Source: Bradyrhizobium sp. WSM3983
GTDB taxonomy: Bacteria; Pseudomonadota; Alphaproteobacteria; Rhizobiales; Xanthobacteraceae
Direction: 5' to 3'
Assembly (NCBI RefSeq): GCF_000473045.1
Contig: NZ_AXAY01000004.1
Coordinates: forward strand, 62,001 to 126,000
Length of the DNA stretch: 64,000 bases
How positions within the stretch are numbered: position 1 is the first letter of the stretch; each line of letters opens with the position of its first letter. A program made the translations under genes and the position numbers. The notes under the pieces are model-generated. The model made no database searches, was not told the origin of the DNA, and saw only the letters and a list, made by a program, of their open reading frames with translations. Below are positions 9,480 through 34,197 of this stretch, piece by piece.

Positions 9480-9643
9480 GCGCGAAGCCGCAGACGCCGT
9501 TGAAGCACTCGATCCCGGAGTTCCCTACGAAAGTAGGTGGGCACCATATGTCCGGGCCCACGGGCCCGGCCAGGGACAGTTCCCTAAAGGATCGATAAGG
9601 CCCCGGGGATATATGGCTCCGGACGCGCGTCGCAGCCTCGCTT
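9480..9643 (-). ncRNA. ssrS: 6S RNA
   Basis: The RNA lies between zapA and fthC on the same strand, the conserved position of 6S RNA. The sequence folds as expected. GCGAGGCTGCG near 9641 can pair with GCGGCTTCGC near 9481 to close the molecule, and CGATCC pairs with GGATCG further in. The symmetric bubble is flanked by AGGGAACT on both sides, and the tip is a strong GGCCGGGCCCGTGGGCCCGG hairpin. A possible -10 box TACATT lies at 9653-9648. 6S RNA binds housekeeping RNA polymerase in stationary phase. Ends are estimates from the stem, about 164 nt. Confidence 0.82.
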
Positions 9644-32945: not shown

Positions 32946-33455
32946 TTACCGCTCGAACGCGGCCTTCAGCGCGTTGAGATGCGGCACCAGCGGATTGCCG
33001 ATCGCGGGGAGCTCGGCCGGCGGGGTATGGATGGTGGTGTCGAGGCGGCGGACACGGGTTTGCAGGCTCATCGAGCGATGGATCAGCTCCTGGAGCAGCG
33101 ACGGCAGCTTCTCGATGGTATCGGCGGGGCCGGGATCGGCGGCGGAGAGCTTGACCTTGGTCTTCTCGCGATTGGCCTGGACCAGCGTCATCTCGCCTTC
33201 CTTCACCGCTCGGTGCAGCAACAGCCACGAGGCGAGCTGCATCAGGCGTGTGGTGAGGCGCATGCTTTCGGTCGCGTAGGTGAGGCTGACGGCGCGATCC
33301 AGCGCCTTGGCCTCGTTGCGGCCGGCGCCGTCGAGATAGGCTGCGGTCTCCTCGACGAGATCCATGCCCTCGCGGAACAGGGCGCCGAACGCCGCAGAAT
33401 TGGTGAACCGCTCGCTGAGTTGAACGAGAGCGCCGTCGGCTTGCAAACGTTCCAT
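32946..33455 (-). CDS. rcdA: DUF1465 protein, RcdA-type protease adaptor
   Basis: 169 residues, matching DUF1465. In Caulobacter the family member RcdA helps ClpXP degrade the cell-cycle regulator CtrA, together with CpdR and PopA. The protein is helical, with LSERFTNSAAFGALFREGMDLVEETAAYLDG-type N-terminal helices and LTYATESMRLTTRLMQLASW in the middle. The role is carried over from the family. It faces rpmE and shares its terminator. Confidence 0.85.
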   Translation of the reverse strand: MERLQADGALVQLSERFTNSAAFGALFREGMDLVEETAAYLDGAGRNEAKALDRAVSLTYATESMRLTTRLMQLASWLLLHRAVKEGEMTLVQANREKTKVKLSAADPGPADTIEKLPSLLQELIHRSMSLQTRVRRLDTTIHTPPAELPAIGNPLVPHLNALKAAFER

Positions 33456-33626: not shown

Positions 33627-33712
33627 AAAAAAGAGCCGCCGGAAAACCGGCGGCTTTGAAAGTTGATAACAGGGAGGCGTCAAACAGAGTGGACAGGAGC
33701 CACTCGGTGTCC
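33627..33712 (-). ncRNA. Small RNA candidate, suhB/alpha-r8-like
   Basis: Read on the minus strand there is a hairpin GAGTGG-CTCCTGT-CCACTC (33705-33687), then a single-stranded stretch with GCCTCCCTGTTATC, then a terminator (AGCCGCCGG/CCGGCGGCT, 33655-33634) ending in six T. An unpaired CCTCCCTGTT between two hairpins recalls the alpha-r8 (suhB, MmgR) family of alphaproteobacterial small RNAs, which carry an anti-Shine-Dalgarno CCUCCC. The 5' end is a guess and may lie further upstream. It could instead be the 3' end of the DUF1192 transcript. Confidence 0.55.
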
Positions 33713-33859
33713 AAACGAGGACAGTTCCAGTCATAAACCCGAAAGCTTAATGTGGAGTAAACGAACGATTATTTTGAGGGTTCGTTAGCCATGTCGGTCA
33801 GTGGCCGAGGGGGGAACAACCTCTTCGTCGTCGCCCCCAGCGAGAGCTCAAACCAGACC

Positions 33860-33967
33860 CTCATGGTGAGGAGCGCGCCCTTCGCGCGCGTCTCGAACCA
33901 TGAAGGCCCCGCTCTCGTCCGCGGCCATCCTTCGAGACGCGCGCAAGAGCGCGCTCCTCAGGATGAG
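33860..33967. repeat. Palindromic repeat, family D
   Basis: CTCATGGTGAGGAGCGCGCC (from 33860) has its inverted partner GCGCGCTCCTCAGGATGAG ending at 33967, with CGCGCGTCTCGAACCAT / ATCCTTCGAGACGCGCGC inside. It fills part of the gap between the small RNA candidate and the DUF1192 gene. No second copy was seen in the window. Confidence 0.85.
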
Positions 33968-34005: not shown

Positions 34006-34197
34006 CTACGACTTGAACACGCTGTTCGCCGCGTCGCGCGAGGCGCGCTTCCTGGTGGCGGCTTCTTCCAGTCTGCCGATCTCGGTCTTCAGCAGGGCGA
34101 CGCGCTCGGTCAGTTCCTCGACTGACAACAGTGAGAGATCCTGTCCGATCTCGTGGGTGACCTTCTTGCGCGGGCGGTCGTCGTCTTCCATCGGCAT
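34006..34197 (-). CDS. DUF1192 family small protein
   Basis: 63 residues. DLSLLSVEELTERVALLKTE followed by IGRLEEAATRKRASRDAANS is the DUF1192 pattern, a short coiled coil conserved in Hyphomicrobiales. The start at 34197 gives MPMEDDDRPRKK, with an alternative Met two codons on. Function is unknown. The gene stands alone, diverging from the quinone oxidoreductase gene. Confidence 0.85.
   Translation of the reverse strand: MPMEDDDRPRKKVTHEIGQDLSLLSVEELTERVALLKTEIGRLEEAATRKRASRDAANSVFKS

Follow-up and report, generated by a model that had tools for sequence, protein, structure and literature searches.

Between the genes for a DUF1192 protein (34006-34197; PF06698, 89.1 bits) and a DUF1465 protein (32946-33455; PF07323, 195.7 bits), both on the minus strand of the 64,000-nucleotide stretch analysed here (the window), lies a compact structured element on the same strand, and the question is which small RNA it encodes and what controls it. 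The DUF1465 family goes by the name RcdA, a usage shared by the papers cited below. A sequence-only reading of 33627-33712 had proposed that a small RNA able to mask ribosome sites is encoded here and had likened it to the suhB/alpha-r8 (MmgR) family. The first proposal is supported by the covariation described below and by a search of the window against all Rfam families, in which 33768-33626 matched RF02356 (BjrC1505) with 131.8 bits, as compared with a gathering cut-off of 50. The match covers model positions 1-140 of 140, no difference from the family being found, and BjrC1505 is present in a single copy in the genome. As judged by this comparison, the element is a BjrC1505 small RNA gene, and the hairpin, CCUCCC stretch and terminator are its 3' part. 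A function of BjrC1505 or a link to CtrA was absent from the open-licence literature searched.

The features proposed for the minus strand, namely the hairpin GAGUGG-CUCCUGU-CCACUC (33687-33705), the following stretch GACGCCUCCCUGUUAUC (33665-33681) and an intrinsic terminator with a 9-bp stem and a T run (33627-33655), were all confirmed in the sequence and by folding. The 86-nt stretch folds with -31.5 kcal/mol, as compared with -18.8 +/- 2.9 for shuffled sequences (z -4.4), and none of the 200 shuffles equalled it. The upstream boundary at 33712 did not hold, as the unit begins further 5' and hairpin 1 (GUCC/GGAC, 33709-33722) had been halved; a promoter-like block at 33761-33730 had also been overlooked. 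This block includes a CtrA-type box, TTTA-N7-TTAA (33747-33761), and a putative -10 element, TATGAC (33730-33735), which was assigned by eye in the alignment, the mechanical promoter scan having picked another pair at 33797-33768. With the start placed at 33722 from the -10 element and hairpin 1, the primary transcript would be ~96 nt long (33627-33722). The RF02356 interval thus seems to take in ~46 nt of promoter; if the true 5' end were the start of the Rfam model at 33768, the box would fall inside the RNA. The CCUCCC stretch had been described as exposed, which is plausible but uncertain, since folding of the whole Rfam interval leaves its UCC paired in the minimum-energy structure and open in the centroid. 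Five ORFs of 34-69 codons overlap the element; none is gene-like, and all are judged implausible as genes from their length and poor conservation. A 7-codon GTG frame in the core, spotted by eye, was rejected as coding, with indels disrupting the frame in some relatives. Elsewhere in the window, 6S RNA was found at 9481-9641 on the minus strand (RF00013, 84 bits), and a REP-like inverted repeat with GCGCGC stretches is visible by eye at ~33860-33960, between the DUF1192 gene and the small RNA.

Conservation of the structure was assessed in an alignment of 47 transcripts, taken from 60 prepared references after exclusion of L056 and some near-duplicates. Across its three helices, 97.5% of cells are paired and 7 of 19 pairs are changed on both sides. 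None of 500 shuffles scored as high, and sliding the partners cut pairing below 50%, though this slide control is biased in favour of the structure, which was drawn from one sequence. Hairpin 1 varies in sequence with pairing kept (pairing in 96.3% of cells, two-sided changes in 2 of 6 pairs), and the terminator covaries as well (4 of 7 pairs), whereas hairpin 2 is nearly invariant and GACGCCUCCCUGU, the core of the putative anti-Shine-Dalgarno seed GACGCCUCCCUGUUAUC, is invariant or nearly so in the 47 sequences.

The genus, order and class referred to here are taken to be Bradyrhizobium, Hyphomicrobiales (Rhizobiales) and Alphaproteobacteria. Of 297 genomes sampled within the order, 245 matched RF02356 at E<=0.001, 212 of them over the Rfam cut-off; in the remaining 52 no match was found, some being missed by the strict filters. 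DUF1465 was present in 265 of the 297. Among the matches listed for both, RNA and rcdA share contig and strand in 104/104 genomes, rcdA always being the downstream partner, with a gap from the RNA to the DUF1465 domain of 151-1440 (median 243). In the first 49 loci from other genomes, rcdA was found in all 49 and DUF1192 in 40. At least seven genomes without a DUF1465 match retain the RNA (G017, G131, G050, G121, G150, G198 and G120; the match in G050, at 42.3 bits, is under the Rfam cut-off); they come from the 20 of 32 DUF1465-lacking genomes that were listed, and in all seven loci rpmE adjoins the RNA and rcdA was not found. G017 carries a second, weaker copy (L084, 43.8 bits) with its own exact TTAA-N7-TTAA box.

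The family, as judged by sequence, reaches past the Rfam cut-off to Sinorhizobium, Rhizobium, Agrobacterium and other orders; this cut-off misses 6/6 Rhizobiaceae-type and 11/13 other-order loci tested. A promoter-free model built from the transcript alone (R1) matched 67 of 240 genomes of the class at E<=0.01, of which 64 (of 237) are outside the order. The best E values were 4.5e-20 and 6.7e-16, and among the weakest matches there may be other anti-Shine-Dalgarno RNAs. With a distant query, rcdA was found nearby in 11 of 27 other-order loci. Rhizobiaceae-type loci have a diverged form of the RNA, TTTTTCTCCCTGTTTTACC, an exact 26-mer of which was found in at least 120 stretches, including those of S. 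meliloti 4H41, S. fredii USDA 205, Agrobacterium vitis, Rhizobium rhizogenes and R. leguminosarum. The RNA is followed by rcdA in 110 of these, and in the other 10 the sequence ends within 700 bases.

Upstream of hairpin 1, the alignment has TTAAC-N6-TTAA with a variable middle. In 50 loci, TTAA-N7-TTAA is exact in 19 and has one mismatch in 31. With at most one mismatch allowed, the box is present in 57/58 loci of the order, the present one included, all of which were chosen with RF02356, a model that spans the box region (L067, unanchored, and L073 and L084, a weak match and a second copy, were excluded). It is likewise present in 20 of 24 other-order loci found with R1, the best-scoring from the 64 genomes outside the order (L092 and L112, of the same order, and L096, L101 and L104, at contig ends, were excluded). 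For loci of the Rhizobiaceae type, which were collected by means of a 3'-end string, a first count gave 76 of 80, and a recount of the at least 120 stretches gave 108 of the 119 with upstream DNA (L200, with none, was omitted). The background in random windows was 0 to 1.3% (0.7% in the comparison made for the 50 loci), the control for the Rhizobiaceae type being run on the 80 loci of the first count. A good box is missing in the 11 other Rhizobiaceae-type loci and in four of other orders (L110, L113, L115 and L118); some of these four may encode another RNA. An exact box, TTAACCGCAAATTAA, precedes the RNA of S. meliloti 4H41, which is located between DUF1192 and rcdA. Box and seed are separated by 76-106 nt (median 79) in the order, whereas the gap from the RNA to DUF1465 ranges over 151-1440.

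Own-genus loci have TTTA as their first half-site and an unaltered second one; this change, made without a compensating one, would break a pair of an RNA helix, which we take to favour the box as a DNA site. The box of the present locus, with one mismatch to TTAA-N7-TTAA, has its 5' base at ~-39 from the predicted start. In the sections of PMC4287350 that bear on it, full CtrA sites of Caulobacter are mostly at -35 and associated with activation, and the full site of ctrA P2 is at -39. CtrA is encoded in this genome (421.7 bits) and is present in the seven genomes that keep the RNA without a DUF1465 match. It is also present in 12/12 tested genomes without an RF02356 match, so the RNA is no precondition for CtrA.

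The reading that we favour, with a probability of about 0.6, is that phosphorylated CtrA at the box ~-39 drives a ~96-nt anti-Shine-Dalgarno repressor RNA and that the CtrA site credited to rhizobial rcdA mainly belongs to this RNA. The RNA might instead act in trans from a housekeeping promoter, with TTAA-N7-TTAA bound by another factor or being part of a plain A+T-rich promoter. We regard this as unlikely. In its favour, shuffled upstream regions reach at most one mismatch in 7.8% of cases, the box of the present locus is imperfect, and the four suhB or suhB-like loci of this genome, unlike BjrC1505, have no CtrA box (0/4). Against it, hardly any change is seen in the half-sites although the intervening bases vary, the spacing stays within narrow limits, and loci with a diverged RNA still have the box.

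A second alternative takes the element as the 5' leader of rcdA, whose own CtrA promoter would lie upstream and whose hairpins and terminator would form an attenuator. The constant position of the RNA ahead of rcdA in the 104 genomes would fit this, as would the prediction of conserved CtrA control of rcdA (in the relevant part of PMC2877005) and its confirmation in Caulobacter (parts of PMC4287350 and PMC4433202). Against it, the RNA is kept in the at least seven genomes without a DUF1465 match, where the box is present in 6/6 anchored loci; RNA and rcdA are more than 1.2 kb apart in two genomes among the matches listed; and rcdA was not found in the 11 phage-scan loci considered below. Moreover, according to the sections of PMC4433202 on rcdA, ChIP-seq shows CtrA of S. 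meliloti bound in the promoter region of rcdA, yet depleting CtrA leaves rcdA unchanged in microarray and follow-up assays. We consider a leader improbable.

The favoured reading, a promoter of the RNA itself, is consistent with this published binding without a response of rcdA. An earlier paper had noted a CtrA motif ahead of an rcdA start (in a passage of PMC3616915), and a passage of PMC10469942 describes multiple starts for rcdA in all three agrobacterial lineages, along with a possible CtrA site, agrobacterial CtrA sites being mapped there in general further upstream than those of Caulobacter. The passages of PMC4433202, PMC3616915, PMC2877005 and PMC10469942 that deal with rcdA do not mention a small RNA at this gene. 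We infer that these data relate to the present RNA. Since the box is conserved upstream of the RNA across loci, what has been taken for the CtrA site of rcdA in rhizobia and agrobacteria is probably, in the main, the promoter of this RNA.

Kinship with suhB, alpha-r8 and MmgR, suggested by the sequence-only reading, was not supported, and membership of that family was refuted. A search with the suhB model (RF00519) gave a full-length match of only 25.7 bits at the locus, against a gathering cut-off of 41, whereas three matches elsewhere in the genome were over the cut-off (75, 50.4 and 47 bits) and one was just below it (38.7). These suhB or suhB-like loci (L002, L003, L004 and L005) are on other contigs. 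The single-stranded 10-mer of alpha-r8, given as UUUCCUCCCU in a passage of PMC12559287, is absent from BjrC1505, the locus reading GACGCCUCCCUGUU in its place, and the hairpins also differ. The neighbours DUF1192 and DUF1465 differ from the N-formylglutamate amidohydrolase gene usual beside suhB; as that gene was not found either among eight ORFs flanking the three suhB loci that exceed the cut-off, neighbours do not discriminate here. What is shared with suhB/alpha-r8 RNAs (MmgR, SisA-D) is a CCUCCCU ahead of the terminator, and the RNAs may act alike through pairing with ribosome sites. Given the weak full-length match and this common layout, a remote common origin is possible, but a diverged member of suhB is most improbable. 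The link to polyhydroxybutyrate found no support, and a bdhA-patatin pair was not located among the eight window proteins scanned. NfeR1 (alpha-r14) and AbcR (alpha-r15) are similar in having anti-Shine-Dalgarno motifs in loops or unpaired stretches and many transport mRNA targets, as described in part of PMC7143759; neither these nor any other Rfam family besides RF02356 was over its cut-off at the locus. CcnA of Caulobacter, compared by description, differs in being 182 nt long, located at the replication origin and directed at ctrA and gcrA. An origin from the 3' UTR of the DUF1192 message, a concern already raised by the sequence-only reading and suggested by 40 of the 49 loci, in which a DUF1192 gene precedes the RNA on its strand, is weakened by the conserved promoter-like block in between, directly upstream of the RNA, and by the phage-scan loci, in which DUF1192 was not found, and can be given very little credence.

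The seed is complementary to AACAGGGAGGC, and ribosome sites are therefore its likely targets; the loop of hairpin 2 is also complementary, to AGGAG. In 25 of 26 own-genus genomes the string AACAGGGAGG is found with an ATG 2-12 bases after it and the reversed pattern is near zero, though any Shine-Dalgarno-like string would behave likewise. One site recurs ahead of the gene for SBP56 (PF05694), as AACAGGGAGGCAGT and then ATG, in 13 of 26 own-genus genomes, SBP56 itself being present in 20; L245 and L327 exemplify this block. Upstream of SBP56, AACAGGGAGGC, which overlaps a strong Shine-Dalgarno sequence, would form 11 bp with the seed; in the 18 of 21 SBP56 loci that were read, it is exact in 13 and inexact in 5. 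The duplex energy of -23.0 is no independent test, as SBP56 was selected for its match, and the resemblance of a strong Shine-Dalgarno sequence to the complement of the seed counts against inferring a target. Several other genes with the site resemble those of periplasmic binding proteins, as judged from their N-termini. SBP56 and binding-protein genes as targets are thus suggestive only. For ctrA and rcdA of this genome, the predicted pairing was unremarkable (-14.8 and -16.6; 5% of random pieces reach -17), and both were rejected. The gene gapR was dropped, the pattern being found in one own-genus gapR paralogue and the start region being covered in 3 of 30 gapR loci.

A scan of IMG/VR with a 16-base core of the RNA gave 11 contigs, of which four scored 51-89 bits with R1, one 27.8, while the others reached at most 17.6 bits or gave no score; one further contig, with 52.7 bits, came from a second pattern. 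Homologues of the RNA were located in L280 (5995-6097), L285 (1065-1166), L289 (3146-3234), L290 (2360-2467) and L345 (2676-2783). In four of these five contigs, phage genes adjoin the copy: that for the terminase large subunit in L280, tail genes in L289 and L290, and the major head protein gene in L345. L285, the best match, has one primosomal-protein match in 2.7 kb, and its phage status rests on IMG/VR. L281, a weak match, has terminase and portal genes. The box with at most one mismatch was found in none of the six phage contigs, L281 included, the best sites having 2-4 mismatches as in random DNA. A named phage collection gave no match to the RNA. L342, L343 and L344 were set aside as chance or very weak viral matches, and plasmid matches, which span 27-34 nt at the terminator end alone, were not accepted as homologues.

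Comparison with relatives establishes the family membership, the conserved structure, the synteny with rcdA in the order and the conserved CtrA-type box; expression, dependence on CtrA and targets are inferred. Phosphorylated CtrA would bind the box and activate the promoter, so that the RNA would be made during the CtrA phase of the cell cycle. Its CCUCCCUGUU stretch, and perhaps the CUCCUGU loop too, would then pair with the ribosome-binding sites of several mRNAs and block their translation, by analogy with reports for SisA, AbcR and NfeR1. Within the literature searched, four points appear to be new: the conserved CtrA-type promoter, the likely reassignment of the rhizobial rcdA site, the occurrence of the RNA beyond the Rfam cut-off and its copies in phages. 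If the CtrA link is true, BjrC1505 would join the best-studied bacterial cell-cycle circuit, from a position beside a gene whose product takes part in CtrA degradation, and the binding of CtrA ahead of rcdA without control of rcdA in S. meliloti would be explained. That phage contigs carry copies suggests that keeping the RNA pays for a phage. More tentatively, and as a speculation that may well fail, an ancient, class-wide RNA would convert the CtrA phase into translational repression from a promoter misread as that of rcdA, and its phage copies, having escaped CtrA, would run the host programme at any time.
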